Source: Candidatus Marivariicella framensis (GTDB lineage: Bacteria > Bacteroidota > Bacteroidia > Flavobacteriales > Flavobacteriaceae). From it: 64,000 nt of DNA. The notes below the pieces were generated by a model. The model saw nothing but the letters and a program-made list of their open reading frames with translations, was not told the DNA's origin and ran no database searches. Below, one piece after another: positions 4,049 to 63,251 of the stretch (position 1 is its first letter; every line of letters starts with the position of its first letter). Position numbers and translations under genes: made by a program. Location of the stretch: NCBI GenBank assembly GCA_905182735.1, contig CAJJCT010000007.1, positions 44,491 to 108,490 on the forward strand. Reading direction: 5' to 3'.

Positions 4049-5050
4049 TTATATAAAGCTTCTAAAAAGTGTGTTACGTAAAATAAATTCTAATATTATG
4101 AAGGTTAAAGCCAAAAAAATAAAAGGACGATATTTCTCATTATAGTTAGTATACTTAAATTCTTCGATTTCTGTTTTTTCTAACTTATTAATAACAGAAT
4201 AAATTTGTTTTAATTTTTCGTTATCTGTAGCTCTGAAATATTGACCACCTGTCATGTCAGCTATTGATCTTAGGAGCTTTTCATCAATTTCAACTTTAGT
4301 CATTCCATATTGAAAGCTACCATTAGGCATAATTCCTATTGGAGCTTTTGCCATTCCATTGCTCCCAAGGCCAATAGTATATGTTTTAATTTCATATTCA
4401 GCTGCTAATTCAGAAGCGATTTTTGGATCAATAAAACCAGAATTATTAACTCCATCTGTCAAAAGAATAATTACTTTACTTTTAGCTTTGCTATCTTTTA
4501 ACCTATTAACTGATGTGGCTAATCCCATTCCAATTGCAGTACCATCTTCGATTAATCCTTGATATTGAATTTCAGATAAACTATTTTTAATGATATTTTT
4601 ATCACTGGTAATTGGAGTAAGAGTATAACTCTCGCCAGCGTATACTACCAAACCTATTCTGTCAGATACTCTATCATCAATAAAATCTGAAGCCACCCTT
4701 TTTAAAGCATTAAGACGATTTGGTTTTAAATCTTGAGCTAACATACTAGAAGAGACGTCAATTGCCATAACAATATCTATTCCTTTGTTAGTTTTACTCT
4801 TAACCGATGTTTCTGAGGTTTGAGGTCTAGCCATTGCAATTATTAATAGAGATAAAGTAATTATTCTAAAAATAAAAAGTGTTGGCCTTAAGTATATTCT
4901 CAATGTTTTTCTTTTAATGGTATCTAAATTTGATAATTGAAGATGAGCTTGTCTATTTTTATGAGAATAGATTTCCCATATAATTAACAATGGTATTAGA
5001 CCAAAAAGCCAGAAAAAGTATGGGTTTAAAAAAGATAAGTTTTCTAACAT
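4049..5050 (-). CDS. batA: BatA, VWA-domain membrane protein
   Basis: 333 residues. Membrane helices around 8-25 and 56-73, then a VWA domain with MIDAS residues D98-x-S100-x-S102, the EDGTAIG threonine and the LLTDGVNN aspartate, then a C-terminal membrane helix near 310-327. This is the standard BatA (aerotolerance BatA/VWA) plan. It starts 2 bases after the preceding 540-residue gene and ends 3 bases before batB, so all are one transcription unit. MIDAS is complete, so metal-dependent ligand binding is expected. Distinguishing BatA from BatB relies on gene order (BatA first). Confidence 0.9.
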   Translation of the reverse strand: MLENLSFLNPYFFWLFGLIPLLIIWEIYSHKNRQAHLQLSNLDTIKRKTLRIYLRPTLFIFRIITLSLLIIAMARPQTSETSVKSKTNKGIDIVMAIDVSSSMLAQDLKPNRLNALKRVASDFIDDRVSDRIGLVVYAGESYTLTPITSDKNIIKNSLSEIQYQGLIEDGTAIGMGLATSVNRLKDSKAKSKVIILLTDGVNNSGFIDPKIASELAAEYEIKTYTIGLGSNGMAKAPIGIMPNGSFQYGMTKVEIDEKLLRSIADMTGGQYFRATDNEKLKQIYSVINKLEKTEIEEFKYTNYNEKYRPFIFLALTFIILEFILRNTLFRSFI

Positions 5051-5052
5051 AT

Positions 5053-6675
5053 TTATAATTCTTTTATTAATTCAATACTATTAATAATTTTTTTACTTAT
5101 TTCATTACCATAACGGTCATCTTTATTGTAAATCAATGTTAAACTAACTCTCCCTTTATCATAATCAATAATTAAAGTTGTGAAATAGCATCTTACCATC
5201 TCATCGTCTTTAACCTTTAGAAGATCAAGAGTCCCTGATATTTTAAGTGTAGGAAGACCAGAAGATGTTTCATAATTATCTGTATCCATTAATATATTCA
5301 CAGCTCCCTGACTTTGGTATCTTTCAATTGTTTGATTAATAATTTTTTTAGTTTTTTCTTCTCCACTTATCTTACTGTTTCCCTGTGAGTTTTCATTTGA
5401 ATCACTTTTATCATTCTTTTCAAAAAGTAATTCAATATAGTATTTGGATTGAATACTATCCATTATAAAAAGAGTGGATGTGTTTGGATTAATTATTTTT
5501 CTTTCTAAAATTTTTGGAGTTAACAATTTTATTGGAGGGGAGCCATACTGAGAATTAAACCACTCATTATTAATTAATTTTTTGGTTGGATATCCAAATA
5601 ATGTATCTCTAACAGGATAATATCCAAATATTAATATTAGAAGTATAATTGACGAAACGGATAAAATAAATATTGAACTTAAAACCCATTTTAATATTTT
5701 TTTTTGTTTTTCTTTTCTTAAAAATTCTTTATAATTTTTTTTAGCTTTTAATTCTTCGATTGTTGGCTCTGGTAAAACCTCTTTTGTTTCTATAACAACA
5801 TCTTCTAACAATTGCCTGTCTAACTTAGCAGCACCTGAGTCTGGAACGGCTCTAGCAAACTTTACTAAATCAGCAGTTCTAAGAACAGTTTTTAAATTCT
5901 TGATGGTTAATTCTTCTAAATCTAATTTTCCTTCTTGTTTGTGTAGCTCTAATTTTAATAACAGTTGATCTGAAGTACTTTCCAATGCATCTATATTAAT
6001 TTCTTCTTCGATATATCTTCTAACGACCTGTGTTAATTCAGAATAGTATGTTTTAAAGTCCTCTTGAATTTCAGGATTTCTTTTTTCTAATTCTTTGAGA
6101 GCTTTAATTGCTCTTTCAAAAGGAGGAATAATTTTTTTTCTTTCTGATGATTTTCTTTGATAAACAAGTGTTAAATAAATCAAACCAATAAAAATAAGTG
6201 CTATTATAACTGCATAAACAGATCTCTTAATTAGATCATCATAATTTTTTCTAACCTTTTGAAGTGGTTTGATTTGATAGAGCTTCTGTTTAAATGTATC
6301 AACAATAATGTCTTTTACCTCAATTTTTACTGAGTCTGAAAGCTTGGAAAAACCATTAACTAACACTCGTTGTGGAGGTATCTTATAGTGTCCTGAATCA
6401 AATTGAATTAAGGCATATTTCTTGGTCAATAAGTACTTGTTTTTAATTTTCTGAGTGTCTGTTGGGAAAATTTCTAAAAGTTCCATTGGGGCAATTTGCA
6501 ACTCCTCTGGAAATTCAATTCTTTGAATTGAATCAACTTCAATATTTAAAAAATAATCAATTTGTTCTCCAATATTAATTGTACTAGAAACAACACCAGA
6601 ATTGACTTTTGGCATGATTTGACAATTAACTTTACCAAATACTAAAAAAATTAAAGTAAATCTGAAAAAATTCAT
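5053..6675 (-). CDS. Two-helix membrane protein of the moxR-bat operon, function unknown
   Basis: 540 residues. A signal peptide ending near NCQ at residues 17-19 is followed by a beta-rich domain of about 110 residues resembling the N-terminal part of BatD. A membrane helix at 152-171 precedes a helical cytoplasmic segment (about 180-325) like the BatD or DUF4381 tail, with PFERAIKALKELEKRN and a conserved DLVKFARAVP stretch. A second helix at 329-351 leads to a C-terminal domain of about 190 residues that I do not recognise. It sits between the DUF58 gene and batA with no gap, where Bacteroidota operons usually carry a hypothetical gene. I cannot name a function; membership of the Bat complex is inference. 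Confidence 0.75.
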   Translation of the reverse strand: MNFFRFTLIFLVFGKVNCQIMPKVNSGVVSSTINIGEQIDYFLNIEVDSIQRIEFPEELQIAPMELLEIFPTDTQKIKNKYLLTKKYALIQFDSGHYKIPPQRVLVNGFSKLSDSVKIEVKDIIVDTFKQKLYQIKPLQKVRKNYDDLIKRSVYAVIIALIFIGLIYLTLVYQRKSSERKKIIPPFERAIKALKELEKRNPEIQEDFKTYYSELTQVVRRYIEEEINIDALESTSDQLLLKLELHKQEGKLDLEELTIKNLKTVLRTADLVKFARAVPDSGAAKLDRQLLEDVVIETKEVLPEPTIEELKAKKNYKEFLRKEKQKKILKWVLSSIFILSVSSIILLILIFGYYPVRDTLFGYPTKKLINNEWFNSQYGSPPIKLLTPKILERKIINPNTSTLFIMDSIQSKYYIELLFEKNDKSDSNENSQGNSKISGEEKTKKIINQTIERYQSQGAVNILMDTDNYETSSGLPTLKISGTLDLLKVKDDEMVRCYFTTLIIDYDKGRVSLTLIYNKDDRYGNEISKKIINSIELIKEL

Positions 6676-7545
6676 TTATCTAGTTCTTTTTTTAAAATAA
6701 CCTAATAGTTTTTTTACATAACTTTCTGAAACTCCACAACTGATTGATCCTGCGCCATTTTTATTGAATAATGTTGAAAAGTTTTCAGCATTTTTCGCAT
6801 ACTCAATTGAATAAGACTCGCGAATTAATTTAGAATCAGTATCAACCCATGAAAGTCCTTTTTTTTCTGAATCCATAATTGGTATAAGTCCCATTTTAGG
6901 CATAAATGTTTCTAGTTTATCATAAATTCTAATCCCTGTCAAATCATGTTTTTTTGCAGCAATTTTTAATGTTTTTTCGTAATTAGAATCAATAAAGTCT
7001 GACAAAAGGAACACTATCGCTTTCTTTTTCAGAACACTAGATAAAAAAGCTAATGCTTCTCCAATATTAGTTGATCTATTAATGGGTTCAAACTCAAGCA
7101 ATTCACGTATTATTCTTAAAACATGTGAGCGTCCTTTTTTGGGGGGTATATATAACTCTATATTACCTGAAAACATTGCTACACCTACTTTATCATTATT
7201 TTGAAGTGCAGAAAAAGCTAAAGTAGCTGCTATTTCAGTTATCACTTCTCTTTTTGTTTGAGATTGAGAACCAAAAAACTCCGAGCCACTAATATCTATC
7301 AAAAGCATCAAAGTAAGTTCCCTTTCTTCTTCAAAAATTTTTATATAAGGGCTGTTGTACCTTGCAGTTACATTCCAATCAATGGCTCTTACGTCATCTC
7401 CAAACTGATATTGTCTAACCTCACTAAATGTCATACCTCTACCTTTAAAAGTACTATGGTATTCTCCACCAAATATATGATTGCTTAATCTTCGAGTTTT
7501 AATCTCGATTTTACGAACTTTTTTTAAAAGTGCTTTAGTATCCAT
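6676..7545 (-). CDS. DUF58 / VWA-like protein
   Basis: 289 residues, no signal peptide, so cytoplasmic. The DUF58 signature is clear around residues 44-62: R-x-Y-x-x-G-D-D-x-R-x-I-D-W, then TAR. A degenerate VWA fold follows with DISGS at 84-88, the usual MIDAS-like site. DUF58 proteins are encoded directly after moxR in most bacteria and are presumed substrates or adaptors of the MoxR AAA+ ATPase. Here it starts 11 bases after moxR and its stop abuts the start of the next gene. The precise biochemical role is not known. Confidence 0.9.
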   Translation of the reverse strand: MDTKALLKKVRKIEIKTRRLSNHIFGGEYHSTFKGRGMTFSEVRQYQFGDDVRAIDWNVTARYNSPYIKIFEEERELTLMLLIDISGSEFFGSQSQTKREVITEIAATLAFSALQNNDKVGVAMFSGNIELYIPPKKGRSHVLRIIRELLEFEPINRSTNIGEALAFLSSVLKKKAIVFLLSDFIDSNYEKTLKIAAKKHDLTGIRIYDKLETFMPKMGLIPIMDSEKKGLSWVDTDSKLIRESYSIEYAKNAENFSTLFNKNGAGSISCGVSESYVKKLLGYFKKRTR

Positions 7546-34912: not shown

Positions 34913-34980
34913 GCAATTTAAGAAATTCAAAGCTAATAAATAGATCTAAAAGAATACATCTATTTATGTACTTTTACCGA

Positions 34981-36021
34981 ATGTTAGAAAATAAAAAAAC
35001 AAAGCTTACACCCATAGAAAATCTTGGAGAATTTGAATTGATTAATCACTTAACCAAGAATTTTTCGATTGATAACCTCTCATCAAAAACTGGAATAGGA
35101 GATGATGGATGTGTAATAGATTTTAAAAAAAATTTAGGTGTAATAAGCACAGATTTATTAATAGAAGGGGTTCATTTTGACTTATCATATGTTCCACTTA
35201 AGCATCTTGGATATAAAGCCGTAATAGTCAATCTTTCTGACATTTATTCAATGAATGCAAAACCAAGTCAAATTACGGTTTCTTTGGCTATATCTAATCG
35301 CTTTACTGTTGAAGCTTTAGAAGAATTTTACGATGGAATAAAAGCAGCGTGTTCTAAATACAAAGTAGACTTAGTTGGGGGGGATACTACGAGTTCAACA
35401 ACAGGAATGGTAGTCTCAATAACAGCAATTGGACAAGTAACTAATAAAAATATTTCTAAAAGAAGTGGAGCGAAAAATAATGACTTACTAGTTGTTTCTG
35501 GAGACCTAGGAGGTGCTTATGCAGGACTTCAAATTTTAGAGCGAGAAAAGGCTGTTTTTAAAGTTAATCCCAAAGTTCAACCTGATCTAGATTCATATAC
35601 CTATAGCATAGGAAGGCAATTAAAGCCAGAAGCCCGGAAAGATGTTTTTGAGCTTTTAAATGAGTTGAAAATCACCCCTAATGCGATGATTGATATTAGT
35701 GATGGACTTTCCTCAGAAACTCTTCATTTATGCAAATCCTCAAATTTAGGATGCCATGTATATGAAGAAAAGATCCCTATAGATCCAGAAGTAATTAAAA
35801 TATGTGAAGAATTTAAAATTAACCCAACCACTGCAGCGCTTAACGGTGGAGAGGATTATGAGCTTTTAATGGCTCTTCCACAATCTGATTATGATAAGAT
35901 TAAAAACCATCCTTATTTGACTATTATCGGTCACTTTACTGATTCAGAAACTGGAGGAAAACTAATAACTGGTTTGAATCAACAAATAGAATTGACAGCG
36001 CAAGGCTGGAATCCAATTTGA
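34981..36021 (+). CDS. thiL: Thiamine-monophosphate kinase
   Basis: 346 residues. Motifs of the ThiL/AIR-synthase fold: IGDDGCVID near the N-terminus, the STDLLIEGVHFD metal loop, VGGDTT, MIDISDGLSSE and NGGEDYELL. It makes thiamine pyrophosphate from thiamine monophosphate. I start it at ATG 34981 (MLENKKTKLTPIENLGEFEL), which matches the usual flavobacterial N-terminus; an ATG five codons earlier adds an odd extension. No riboswitch fits in the short upstream gap. Confidence 0.95.
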   Translation: MLENKKTKLTPIENLGEFELINHLTKNFSIDNLSSKTGIGDDGCVIDFKKNLGVISTDLLIEGVHFDLSYVPLKHLGYKAVIVNLSDIYSMNAKPSQITVSLAISNRFTVEALEEFYDGIKAACSKYKVDLVGGDTTSSTTGMVVSITAIGQVTNKNISKRSGAKNNDLLVVSGDLGGAYAGLQILEREKAVFKVNPKVQPDLDSYTYSIGRQLKPEARKDVFELLNELKITPNAMIDISDGLSSETLHLCKSSNLGCHVYEEKIPIDPEVIKICEEFKINPTTAALNGGEDYELLMALPQSDYDKIKNHPYLTIIGHFTDSETGGKLITGLNQQIELTAQGWNPI

Positions 36022-59277: not shown

Positions 59278-59742
59278 ATGAAAACTGAGACCTTTTTAAG
59301 TTTCCATGCCTTTAAAATACTTTCGGTATTATATGTTTTTGCTATTCTATTTTCATGCAATAATGATGATATTAAAAGAAATCCTTTTCTATACGAAGTG
59401 TCTTTTAATCATAGCATTAATTTGAATTTACCTGAATATGACAATCTGAATTTTGCTGGAGGAAGTAAATTTATTCCATATGGAGGGATTAATGGACTTT
59501 TAATTTTTAATATAAACGGAAATGACATTTTTGCTTGGGAGGCCAGTTGCTCAAATCACAAATTAGAAGCCTGCTCTAAACTCATAATCGAGGGGCTTCT
59601 TTCCAATTGCAACTGTGATAATTTTAAATATAGTCTTGCTACTGGTCAATTAATAGAAGGAGATGTTGAAAATTCTTCGCAATATCCTCTTTTAAACTAT
59701 AGGTCTGAAAGGTTTGGTAAAACAATTATTATTTCCAATTAA
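59278..59742 (+). CDS. Lipoprotein with degenerate Rieske-like motif
   Basis: 154 residues. Lipoprotein signal with Cys at 27 (AILFSCNND). The body has the order and spacing of a Rieske domain: C91-S-N-H94, then C111-N-C113-D114-N-F-K-Y followed by LATGQLIEG, comparable to the C-x-H ... C-P-C-H-G-S-x-F boxes. The two cluster histidines appear shifted or replaced (Asn93, Asp114), so a canonical 2Fe-2S site is doubtful. Envelope-located. Its stop shares TTAA with the TonB receptor gene. Confidence 0.75.
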   Translation: MKTETFLSFHAFKILSVLYVFAILFSCNNDDIKRNPFLYEVSFNHSINLNLPEYDNLNFAGGSKFIPYGGINGLLIFNINGNDIFAWEASCSNHKLEACSKLIIEGLLSNCNCDNFKYSLATGQLIEGDVENSSQYPLLNYRSERFGKTIIISN

Positions 59743-61922
59743 AAACTAGTTGTTAATCCTATAAGAAAGTTAATTCCAGCTTGAGGATAATATCCAGTTC
59801 CTTCAATAGTTGTTATCTGATTTGGCGAAGACCAATTATCATCATAAGTATAGAAATATCCATTTGAAACATACTTTTTATCAAAAACATTATTGATTAA
59901 TAAGTTCAAAGTCATCAGACTTATAGCAGATTGAGGTTTCCATTGGTAGCTAATATTAATGTCATTTACAGAATATGAGTCTAATCTTGAACCTTTAGCT
60001 TCAATATTACTCATATACTGTTCTCCTACTAATTTTGTTAGTAACGATATGTTTAAATTTGTTATAGGTTTGTATGTTAAAATATTTCCAAAAACTAATT
60101 CGGGTGAATATGGCAAACGGGTATTGCCAAGGGAATTTAAAACACCATCTCTTTTAAAATAAAAATCTTTATTGGTGTTTTTACTTAATGCAATATTGGA
60201 TTGAAGTAGCCATTTTTCTAATAAATTCACCTTAATCTCAATTTCTATTCCCAGCCTACTACTTTCTCCAATATTTTCTCTTATTGGAGTTCCAACATCG
60301 TCCAAAGCTCCAGTTAAAGCTAATTGATCTTTATAGGCCATTAAATATATATTGGAATATACCTGAAAAAAGTTTTGATTAATTCTCCAGCCAAATTCAA
60401 GGTTGTCTAATATCTCAGGTTTTGGATTCCCGTTTTCAAAATCAGATCTAGTAGGTTCTCTTTGTGCTTTTGAGTAAGAGAAATATAGCTGTTGATTATT
60501 AACCATTTGATATGTTAGACCTGCTTTAGGATTAAAAAAGCTATACTTACTGTTAACTTTAAATAATCGAGGACCTGCCAAAACACCATTAATATCATAA
60601 TTTACATTTCGATATTGAAGGTCAATAAATCCAGTAATTTGATCTGTTAAGGGTTGTTCTAGTTTAGCATAAATATTTATTTCTTTTTTATCTCCTTTAT
60701 TTTCATAAAATCTTTTTCTTGGAAGTATATCACCTGAATTTTGCGCCCATAAAATTGTTCCAAAATGATCTCCAATATATCTACTAAATAACACTCCCAT
60801 GTCTATGCGAGTTTGACCTTTAATATAGTTTGCGCTTGTTGTCAAAACATAATAATTGTTATCTAACCATTTTCTAGTTACATTTTCTGTCTCTGAAATA
60901 GTTTCACTTCCAATATTAAATGGATTTAATTGTAAGTATGAAAAATTTGTATCAGACCCTGAGTCATTATACTCTTCATAGTATCCTCTTCCATAGGTGT
61001 AATTTAGACCTAAAGAGGTGCTCCATAAGGAATTTATTTGCTCATTCCAGTGAAACTGATAGTGATCTTGACGATAATTGTCTTCTTGTGAATCATAAAA
61101 ACTAGTTAATAATCCATTATCATCATATATTGCTCCAGCAGGATTATATGTTCTATTGGATAAGTCTTCAATACCATACCAAGATTGATAAGTAATTTCG
61201 TGACCACCAAAAGCAATAGCTTTAATTAATGTGTTTTCATCTTTATATGCTCCTTGTAAAAAATATGATTTTAAATTAGAACTTGCTCTGTCAACATATC
61301 CATCAGATGTGATTTTAGATAGACGTCCCGACAATTCAAAATAATTATTCAAAAGTCCTGTCGAAAATTTTAATGTGTTTCTTATTGTGTTAAAACTTCC
61401 AACACTAGTAATTAAAGATGATGAAGCTTTATTTTGCATAGCATCAGTTAAAATATTTAAACTTGCTCCAAAAGAACCAGATCCATTTGTTGATGTTCCT
61501 ACTCCTCTTTGAAGCTGAATACTTTCAATTGAACTAGCAAAGTCTGGAAGGTTTACCCAAAATGTTCCTTGTGATTCAGAATCATTAAATGGTATACCAT
61601 TTAATGTTACATTAACTCTAGAAGCATCACTTCCTCTTACGCGTATTCCTGTATAACCAATACCTGCTCCTGCATCACTAGTTGTGACAACACCGGGTAA
61701 ATAATTTAATAGAACTGGAATATCCTGACCTAAATTACGAGATTTTATATCTTCTTTATTAATATTAGAATGTGTTACTGGATCAGTTTTTTTTGCTCTA
61801 ATTGATGAAACTTTTACTTCTTCCAACATGAATACTTTAAGCGAGTCTGTTGATTCTTCTATTTCTTGTGAAAAACCATTTAAAAATGTTAGAAATAAAA
61901 ATGCTCTAATTACTATTTTCAT
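59739..61922 (-). CDS. TonB-dependent outer membrane receptor under TPP riboswitch control
   Basis: 727 residues. Signal peptide (1-18), TonB-box-like VFMLEEVKVSS (about 30-40), plug domain to about residue 155 (IPVLLNYLPGVVTTSDAGAG, GIRVRGSDASRVNVTLNGIP), then a beta barrel ending in aromatic Phe (GLTTSF), the outer-membrane assembly signal. The 5' UTR carries a TPP riboswitch (61977-62052), so the imported ligand is most likely thiamine or a thiamine derivative. It has its own promoter, separate from pnuC upstream. Confidence 0.9.
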   Translation of the reverse strand: MKIVIRAFLFLTFLNGFSQEIEESTDSLKVFMLEEVKVSSIRAKKTDPVTHSNINKEDIKSRNLGQDIPVLLNYLPGVVTTSDAGAGIGYTGIRVRGSDASRVNVTLNGIPFNDSESQGTFWVNLPDFASSIESIQLQRGVGTSTNGSGSFGASLNILTDAMQNKASSSLITSVGSFNTIRNTLKFSTGLLNNYFELSGRLSKITSDGYVDRASSNLKSYFLQGAYKDENTLIKAIAFGGHEITYQSWYGIEDLSNRTYNPAGAIYDDNGLLTSFYDSQEDNYRQDHYQFHWNEQINSLWSTSLGLNYTYGRGYYEEYNDSGSDTNFSYLQLNPFNIGSETISETENVTRKWLDNNYYVLTTSANYIKGQTRIDMGVLFSRYIGDHFGTILWAQNSGDILPRKRFYENKGDKKEINIYAKLEQPLTDQITGFIDLQYRNVNYDINGVLAGPRLFKVNSKYSFFNPKAGLTYQMVNNQQLYFSYSKAQREPTRSDFENGNPKPEILDNLEFGWRINQNFFQVYSNIYLMAYKDQLALTGALDDVGTPIRENIGESSRLGIEIEIKVNLLEKWLLQSNIALSKNTNKDFYFKRDGVLNSLGNTRLPYSPELVFGNILTYKPITNLNISLLTKLVGEQYMSNIEAKGSRLDSYSVNDINISYQWKPQSAISLMTLNLLINNVFDKKYVSNGYFYTYDDNWSSPNQITTIEGTGYYPQAGINFLIGLTTSF

Positions 61923-61942
61923 TTAAATGTGTTTATTTAAAT

Positions 61943-61953
61943 AAAAGGGGCAG
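61943..61953 (-). promoter_or_regulatory. Possible competing strand (expression platform) of the TPP riboswitch
   Basis: On the minus strand this reads CTGCCCCTTTT, 21 bases before the receptor ATG. CTGCCC is complementary to GGGCAG in the aptamer (62001-62006), and CCCCTTT to AAAGGGG (62041-62047). Pairing with either would disrupt the aptamer fold. There is no T-run terminator, so control by translation or another route is more likely. Inference. Confidence 0.45.
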
Positions 61954-61976
61954 TTATTTTATGAATTAAAATTAAA

Positions 61977-62052
61977 TCATTACTTCCTTGGCAGCATTAC
62001 CTGCCCAGGTTCCATGGGTATAATCTCAGCCAATATGGCACCCCTTTGAGAC
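61977..62052 (-). ncRNA. TPP (THI-box) riboswitch aptamer
   Basis: Read on the minus strand, the conserved TPP elements occur in order: AAAGGGGTGCC, then GGCTGAGATTATACCC, then GAACCTG, CAGGTAATGCTG and AAGGAAG. P2/P3 (GGGG with ACCC; GCC with GGC), the pyrimidine-sensor CTGAGA loop and the pyrophosphate-sensor arm are recognisable. It lies in the 5' UTR of the TonB receptor gene, with a TATATTTG promoter box just upstream. Confidence 0.95.
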
Positions 62053-62089: not shown

Positions 62090-62638
62090 CTATGACTTTA
62101 AAATGAGCTTATCTATAATTTCAACTGAAGTTTTTATTCGAGTAGTGACGTCTCCTGAAATTAGTTTATAAGGAAAGTCATACAAATCAAGAACTTCTTT
62201 AAAAACATTTAACATTTTTTCTCTATCATTTGGTCGATCTCTTAGGTAATCATTTTGCCATGGAATATCAACATCTGTGAGTAAATAATAATCATACTTT
62301 GAATGTTTTGCTGCTTTTAATATTTTAGAGGAACAATAACCATTAAAGTGAGTTTGAGACCATATTTGAGTTACAACTACATTAGTATCACAAAAAATAA
62401 TTTTATTAGAATTTTTTATAAGTTTATTCTCAAGACTCTTCTGGCCTTCAATAATAATTGGTAGGTCTTCCAAGGAGCAAACCTCATTATTTCTATCCCA
62501 TTTTTTTTGAAGATAATCCCTTGCAAACTCAGGAACACAATTAGTATTATAATGTGCTGCTAAATGATTTGCAAGAGTCGTTTTCCCTGAAGACTCAGGG
62601 CCGAATAAAACAATTTTTAAGCATTTATTCTTTGACAT
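62090..62638 (-). CDS. NadR kinase-domain-like ATPase
   Basis: 182 residues from ATG 62638 (MSKNKCLKIVLFGPESSGKTT); a longer start 27 bases upstream lies deeper in pnuC. P-loop GPESSGKTT at about 12-20, VPEFARDYLQ, IIFCDTN and LRDRPNDRE match the ribosylnicotinamide kinase domain of NadR as a standalone protein. Such kinases phosphorylate nicotinamide riboside; relatives beside PnuT transporters may act on thiamine. It overlaps pnuC by 14 bases, so the two are one unit. Which substrate it uses cannot be decided here. Confidence 0.8.
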   Translation of the reverse strand: MSKNKCLKIVLFGPESSGKTTLANHLAAHYNTNCVPEFARDYLQKKWDRNNEVCSLEDLPIIIEGQKSLENKLIKNSNKIIFCDTNVVVTQIWSQTHFNGYCSSKILKAAKHSKYDYYLLTDVDIPWQNDYLRDRPNDREKMLNVFKEVLDLYDFPYKLISGDVTTRIKTSVEIIDKLILKS

Positions 62639-63251
62639 ATGAAATTTCTTTTTTCCAAGCGACATAGCCAGCTAATGCAATCAGAGTAAAAACCAAATAT
62701 TGAAAGCTTGTTATAGTTAAACCCTTATATAAATAAAGTGGTATTGAAATAATGTCTCCAACTATCCAAAACAACCAGTTTTCAATTTTTCTTCTTGCCA
62801 TCAACCACATTCCAACAACAAAAATAGCTGTTGTGACTGTATCAACATATGCAATCATGTTATTCCACATATTAAAAACATTATATACAATAAAAATAAA
62901 AATAATTGCAAAAATGAATAAGAAAAAAGAGATCTTATATTCATATTTATTCATTTTTGAAATTGGATTTATAGTTATCCCATTACTAGAGCGAGTCCAA
63001 TAATACCACCCATAAATACTTATGAAAAAATAATATGCATTTATAAGCATATCACCAATTAATCCCCAATAAAAAAGGAGATAAACATATATGGAGGTTG
63101 AAATCATTCCAGTTGGATATACCCAAATACTATTATTTTTTGAAAACCACACACTTAAAAAACCTAAAATAGTAGCTATAATTTCCAATGAAATATTTAA
63201 GCATGTGTACTCACTATATGGTTCAAATAAAAATTCTAGAATAGAAGACAT
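62625..63251 (-). CDS. PnuC-family vitamin transporter
   Basis: 208 residues, seven or so helices, with the family segments YFFISIYGWYYW (around residue 75) and AYVDTVTTAIFVVGMWLMARRKIENWLFWIVGD. PnuC proteins facilitate uptake of nicotinamide riboside (PnuC), thiamine (PnuT) or riboflavin, with trapping by a cytoplasmic kinase, here encoded by the overlapping gene. The TPP riboswitch and receptor directly downstream favour thiamine; the NadR-like kinase favours nicotinamide riboside. The gene itself has no riboswitch. Confidence 0.88.
   Translation of the reverse strand: MSSILEFLFEPYSEYTCLNISLEIIATILGFLSVWFSKNNSIWVYPTGMISTSIYVYLLFYWGLIGDMLINAYYFFISIYGWYYWTRSSNGITINPISKMNKYEYKISFFLFIFAIIFIFIVYNVFNMWNNMIAYVDTVTTAIFVVGMWLMARRKIENWLFWIVGDIISIPLYLYKGLTITSFQYLVFTLIALAGYVAWKKEISYVKE

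Follow-up and report, generated by a model that had tools for sequence, protein, structure and literature searches.

TPP riboswitches are a textbook case of strand exchange based on the P1 stem. Here we describe a TPP switch preceding a TonB-dependent receptor gene in a 64,000-nucleotide stretch of DNA (the window) from a small-genome flavobacterium whose genome is 86% complete. The switch resembles the THI element of Rfam (RF00059) in its P2-P5 ligand core, in its thiamine-related target and in a predicted exchange of strands with the region before the gene; it differs in having no P1, in offering the 5′ strand of P2 together with an A-tract for exchange, and in carrying the exchange partner within a hairpin loop beside the start codon.

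TPP-switched thiamine receptors of the OMthi and omr1 kind have been described for Bacteroidetes in the accessible text of PMC5613172 and PMC12236431; both the receptor type and its control by TPP are already known. In the Bacteroides OMthi-pnuT-tnr3 system, as far as the accessible text of PMC5613172 goes, a TPP-switched TonB receptor likewise accompanies a PnuC-family transporter, whereas the window has a NadR-like kinase in place of TPK/tnr3 and has its transporter and kinase genes upstream of the switch. Salvage by omr1 and ThiL in Flavobacteriales MAGs (available portions of PMC12236431, PMC10881298 and PMC12442306) matches the window in the putative thiamine TonB receptor, the presence of ThiL, the lack of synthesis genes and a nearby TPP switch, but those portions name no thiamine kinase. 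The window kinase is homologous to the ribosylnicotinamide kinase domain of NadR (1lw7, 8x7f, 9x6f), which pairs with PnuC just as the window kinase does (accessible part of PMC7221760); it differs from NadR in having neither an adenylyltransferase nor a DNA-binding domain and in its thiamine gene neighbourhood. Searches of the open-licence PMC literature turned up no description of a P1-less TPP switch, of its platform of anti-P2 strand and hairpins at the start codon, or of a NadR-type thiamine kinase.

Our most far-reaching reading, to which we assign a probability of roughly 0.55, is that Bacteroidota have a P1-less TPP switch whose own ligand-pocket strand alternates between pairing in P2 and pairing with an anti-P2 loop located at the start codon, and that the salvage route it governs (receptor, PnuC, NadR-like kinase and ThiL) holds an unrecognised NadR-fold thiamine kinase replacing TPK in most of their thiamine auxotrophs.

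The initial annotation had proposed a TPP riboswitch with all conserved THI-box elements on the minus strand at 61977-62052. On that strand RF00059 is matched along the full model at 62055-61966 (48.2 bits, E 1.1e-8), the P2-P5 core lies at 62044-61986, making the proposed frame a fair one, and the runner-up in the genome, at 12.5 bits and E 9.9, leaves this as the sole credible match. The score falls below the Rfam gathering score of 54.3 bits, a curator's threshold and not a biological feature, so the suggested check against the Rfam model gives a full-length match whereas a default scan of the window is empty; we attribute the low score to the lack of a P1 stem. The ligand-binding core of the class (GGGGUG, CUGAGA, ACCC and P4/P5) is present in the window aptamer as GGGGUGCC, GGCUGAGA, ACCC and ACCUG..CAGGUAAUGCUGCC..AAGG, and the claim of a full set of elements thus stands for the ligand core and fails for the P1 of the consensus.

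For comparison we used 70 of the 78 TPP matches from the genome set, omitting eight with E of 0.02 or more; the gene downstream is a TonB receptor in 50 (receptor type), a thiC operon in 13 (thiC type) and another gene in seven. In an alignment of 33 of the 50 receptor-type aptamers (A3; the other 17 were excluded by length or class), 98.9% of cells in the analyst-supplied core structure are paired, a value that none of 500 shuffles reached. A false hit as the explanation of the low Rfam score is ruled out by the conserved core and synteny. On its sequence, the element is classed as a real TPP riboswitch of a P1-less variant and not as an ordinary RF00059 member, because the consensus P1 is absent. 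The loss of P1, the platform at the start codon and the pair of PnuC and kinase genes do not figure in the initial annotation.

A candidate thiamine kinase beside the switch

Just upstream of the switch and on the same strand lie genes for a PnuC-family transporter (62625-63251, minus strand), a candidate thiamine facilitator, and for a stand-alone NadR-kinase-like protein of the AAA_28 family (62090-62665, minus strand), a candidate thiamine kinase; the genome holds one of each. The transporter matches PF04973 (172.7 bits) and TIGR01528 (97.4 bits), both over cut-off, and its best structure match is 4qtn. The kinase matches only positions 165-319 of the NadR profile TIGR01526 (98.7 bits, cut-off 341), contains no NMN adenylyltransferase domain and is thus not a bifunctional NadR; its best structure matches are the three NadR kinase domains named above. 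In one genus mate (G002) the PnuC gene (C13:100354-100897) is split by in-frame stops, through assembly error or decay.

The initial annotation took thiL and dxs as signs of a thiamine-scavenging lifestyle. Both genes are in the window (ThiL, thiamine-phosphate kinase, at 34966-36021 on the plus strand, 293.7 bits; dxs, 676.4 bits), but dxs is a general TPP enzyme and thiL is weak support, because ThiL is present in every one of 119 genomes drawn class-wide from Bacteroidia (118 besides our own, separate from the set of relatives). Better support comes from the absence of matches to ThiC, TMP-TENI/ThiE and TPK, the last sought with profile PF04263, in the genome itself and in six genus mates (completeness 68-90%). 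The same ubiquity defeated our forecast that ThiL would discriminate kinase genomes from TPK genomes: it was present in 119 of 119 and separated none.

The distribution of the kinase itself is more informative. Of the 47 relatives with a completeness of 90% or more, 31 count as ThiE-less under an analyst-set threshold, any ThiE hit falling short of 100 bits. The kinase is present in 29 of the 31; of the remaining two, G022 carries TPK and a 0.3-Mb genome carries neither. In G022 the order is switch, receptor, PnuC, TPK; the receptor of this Bacteroides-like operon (leader L018) is 43% identical to the window receptor over 361 aa, and ThiL is kept alongside TPK. In the class-wide draw, the 79 other ThiE-less genomes comprise 59 with the kinase, 17 with TPK, three with neither and none with both, and across all 118 the two co-occur in two genomes of one genus (Fisher p 9e-8, a test that ignores relatedness). 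A separate arrangement is seen in G028, where the operon led by a TPP switch (L032) comprises a gene for an AIRS/ThiL-like protein of 361 aa and a ThiE-family gene; this genome additionally has a normal ThiL.

The kinase is often found close to a TPP switch. Of 48 kinase-bearing genomes (our own included; in five of the 48 the aligned kinase match runs across stop codons), 36 have a TPP switch no more than 10 kb from the kinase, invariably downstream and on its strand, and 12 of these have it at 200 bp or less. Among the best 80 of 165 named loci found with the kinase alignment, 39 hold a switch, always on the kinase strand, a count that excludes L182 (E 0.063); among 20 class-survey loci a switch is matched in nine, three of them weakly. 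Apart from the riboswitch, 14 of 66 class-survey genomes have a TenI/ThiE-like gene, scoring under the ThiE cut-off, no more than 3.3 kb from the kinase, and in 11 of those it directly precedes PnuC and the kinase on the same strand; three of four such proteins tested exceed the Pfam TMP-TENI cut-off. At L190 the full order is GGGP synthase, TenI-like, PnuC, kinase, TPP switch, receptor, and L192 has the same order with a weak switch (E 0.006). This neighbourhood links the kinase to thiamine independently of the riboswitch, with thiamine as its candidate substrate.

The most serious competing explanation is that PnuC and the NadR-like kinase serve nicotinamide riboside salvage, their nearness to the TPP switch being synteny with no functional link. 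The closest sequence matches, NadR kinase domains and the PnuC structure 4qtn, favour it, as does the NCBIfam PnuC score. NAD salvage does not, however, predict that kinase and TPK should so seldom share a genome (two of 118, none of the 79 ThiE-less), and the proximity to TPP switches in 36 of 48 genomes, the row of TenI/ThiE-like gene, PnuC and kinase at 11 loci and the missing NMN adenylyltransferase domain all stand against it; we regard it as unlikely. From profiles, gene order and distribution, the NadR-like kinase is probably the missing thiamine kinase, and together with PnuC it probably provides a thiamine-capturing step that appears otherwise to be missing from these bacteria.

Other arrangements occur at related loci. 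At L036 a DUF4301 protein and an RF-1-domain protein are encoded between kinase and TPP switch (4976-6936), and ORFs of the same size occupy this place at many other Flavobacteriaceae loci. At L021, L033 and L040 the TPP switch is followed by a PnuC-like gene (∼30% identity to the window PnuC) and an acyl-CoA-dehydrogenase-like gene, perhaps a precursor-salvage operon.

The receptor, its ligand and its promoter

The gene downstream of the switch (59739-61922, minus strand) encodes a TonB-dependent receptor of 727 aa with plug and barrel domains over cut-off (PF07715 and PF00593), which gives it the TonB receptor fold; no solved structure matched it by sequence. From its domains and relatives it is likely a thiamine receptor of the omr1/OMthi kind. 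The proposal that a TPP switch controls this receptor and that thiamine is its likely ligand is well supported, and the same kind has been described for Bacteroidetes. On the opposite strand, between the receptor and GreA genes, 59278-59742 encodes a protein with no Pfam match, homologues of which (26-43% identity) occur at the same place in many relatives.

Import of another thiamine vitamer, such as a precursor or a phosphate ester, would fit the TenI/ThiE-like genes found close to the kinase in those 14 of 66 class-survey genomes. We nevertheless think it quite improbable, since no ThiE for the use of a precursor was detected in the genome and since the Bacteroides OMthi supports growth at low thiamine (PMC5613172, accessible text).

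A promoter box had been proposed at the 5′ edge of the aptamer, and a promoter-like box is found there: TATATTTG, at 62064-62057 on the minus strand, sits 12 nt before the GGGG of P2 and is of the Bacteroidetes TAnnTTTG type. A similar box precedes P2 in 45 of the 50 receptor-type aptamers (our own included), mostly 11 to 16 nt away, a spacing from which the RNA 5′ end is expected near a UCUC motif (62048-62051, minus strand). That the receptor is transcribed from its own promoter is accordingly plausible from the conservation of the box, but 34 nt separate the Rfam match from the end of the kinase ORF at 62090, and read-through into the leader is therefore possible. The UCUC motif is present in 42 of 50 receptor-type leaders and in none of the 20 other aptamers. 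As a side observation, UCUC(A) (62051-62048 in the window; the same 42 leaders), close to where the RNA is predicted to begin, has a complement in the UGAGA strand of the pocket; the two might pair in ligand-free RNA, or the motif might be a mark of transcription initiation. The pairing fits the sequence and lies beyond the reach of covariation, because UGAGA is invariant in A3.

A predicted strand exchange at the start codon

Thirty nucleotides upstream of the receptor start codon, the strand UGCCCCUUU (61944-61952, minus strand) is complementary over 9 bp to AAAGGGGUG (62039-62047), which comprises the A-tract and the 5′ strand of P2 (p 0.01 against shuffles). A CCYCUUU-type strand of this kind, complementary to the A-tract and GGGGUG of P2, precedes the start codon in receptor leaders despite widely varying linkers, and lies at -30 to -35 in 35 of 43. 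Scored against shuffles of the same stretch, the anti-P2 complementarity averages 17.7 versus 12.2 over all 50 leaders (31 singly at p ≤ 0.05) and 17.3 versus 12.5 in 34 further leaders from named genomes (39 less five duplicates), of which 19 are significant. Both sides change together in family f8 (UACGGGGU with ACUCCGUG, p 0.06-0.08) and in leader L026 (GGGGG with CCCCC, p 0.005). In Pontibacter, Botryobacter and Hymenobacter (Cytophagales), UUAGGGGU stands opposite ACCCCUGG or GCCCCUGG (L183, L172, L174, L165); none of seven non-flavobacterial leaders is significant alone.

The anti-P2 strand lies in the loop of a hairpin, H1 (AAAUAA-CUGCCCCUU-UUAUUU, 61939-61959, minus strand), whose arms covary across leaders: AAAUAA/UUAUUU in the window, GAAUAA/UUAUUC in many Flavobacteriaceae, and elsewhere UUCAAA/UUUGAA, CGAG/CUCG, ACAUGCAU/AUGCGUGU and CACGGGUAAC/GUUACUUGUG. 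Its mean score over 43 leaders is 13.33; exchanging arms between families gives at most 10.6, and shuffling them 9.79. In 13 representatives it is 14.08, against at most 11.77 for swaps and 7.95 (sd 0.77) for shuffles. A column count of H1 in fixed register on alignment A1 does not set it apart from shuffles (36% of cells paired), and sliding it by -3 raises the share to 75%; because loop lengths differ, the stems were scored leader by leader, with arm swaps and shuffles as controls. A second covarying hairpin, H2, directly before or in the AUG, scores 13.16 against at most 9.44 in controls (43 leaders). With its extension, H2 would form a clamp in which UUUUAUUUAAAU (61935-61946, minus strand) faces AUUUAAAUGAAA (61917-61928), containing the start codon at 61922-61920; the window stem is 12 bp including one G-U pair. 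A stem covering the A and U of AUG has at least eight pairs in 28 of 43 leaders and at least six in 39, as counts that carry no chance control. All 50 receptor-type leaders enter the anti-P2 count and those of P1 and leader motifs; the H1, H2, energy and openness figures omit L018, L035, L041, L042, L053, L056 and L058, which have no clear platform or start, an omission that favours the platform.

In the proposed mechanism, AAAGGGGUG would pair with UGCCCCUUU when TPP is scarce, drawing the U-run off AUGAAA and leaving the start codon open. Bound TPP would hold GGG in P2 and free UUUUAUUUAAAU to clamp AUUUAAAUGAAA; as TPP fixes P2, the start codon would close, and the predicted logic is that TPP switches receptor translation off. 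Folds forced into the anti-P2 versus the P2 state differ by a mean of -0.2 kcal/mol (range -6.5 to +7.9; window -1.0; n=43) in models of the RNA alone, which leave aside the energy of ligand binding, tertiary contacts and folding during transcription. Unconstrained, the anti-P2 helix is favoured in 36 of 43 leaders and P2 in seven. The anti-P2 state exposes the AUG and next six nucleotides more than the P2 state does in 35 of 43 leaders (0.48 versus 0.30; window 0.65 versus 0.31), and does not in the other eight. It is likely, in our judgement, that this P1-less aptamer stops translation of the TonB receptor at high TPP through a strand folding over the AUG.

The mode of action of TPP riboswitches in Bacteroidetes is called uncertain in the accessible text of PMC5613172, which also reports that the B. 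thetaiotaomicron OMthi transcript barely changes with thiamine, a result from a different organism that is consistent with translational control. Control of transcription, by termination or Rho, is a doubtful alternative: some relatives do have long linkers and other hairpins between aptamer and gene, but the short window linker, judged by eye, has no GC-rich hairpin with a U-run, and the conserved complement sits at the start codon. A feedback loop can be envisaged in which the receptor would import thiamine, PnuC would carry it inward, the NadR-like kinase would make thiamine monophosphate and ThiL would make TPP, closing the loop on the switch.

A leader without P1 and its significance

The longest helix available for P1 averages 2.98 bp in the 50 receptor-type leaders, identical to the 2.98 bp of shuffled sequences, whereas thiC-type leaders average 5.46 bp against 3.74 (n=13), with a P1 of the AACUUU/AAAGUU form reaching at least 5 bp in 12-13 of 13. 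A hidden P1 as a feature of the receptor-type group is thus ruled out. A conventional P1 formed in a non-standard register of the window aptamer, with the low Rfam score a sign of divergence alone, is very improbable: at least five contiguous pairs are possible in seven of 50 receptor-type leaders, but the group mean equals that of shuffles and the window leader offers at most three. Complements to the 5′ strand also occur in thiC-type leaders (significant in five of 13). Both types thus share strand exchange in itself, and the receptor type is set apart by the loss of P1 and by its start-codon hairpins.

An RF00059 match with E ≤ 1 is found in 56 of 60 genomes (our own included) and exceeds the cut-off in 19 of 60; the other 37 of the 56, like the window, have no match over it. 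The P1-less form explains why scans at the Rfam cut-off miss so many. Together with the start-codon clamp, it would provide a concrete translational model for Bacteroidetes. Some auxotrophic Bacteroidota clusters are reported, in the accessible text of PMC10881298, to have no described system for B1 synthesis or transport. If the NadR-like kinase phosphorylates thiamine, it would fill the B1 salvage gap of auxotrophic Bacteroidota and would correct a misleading NAD annotation.
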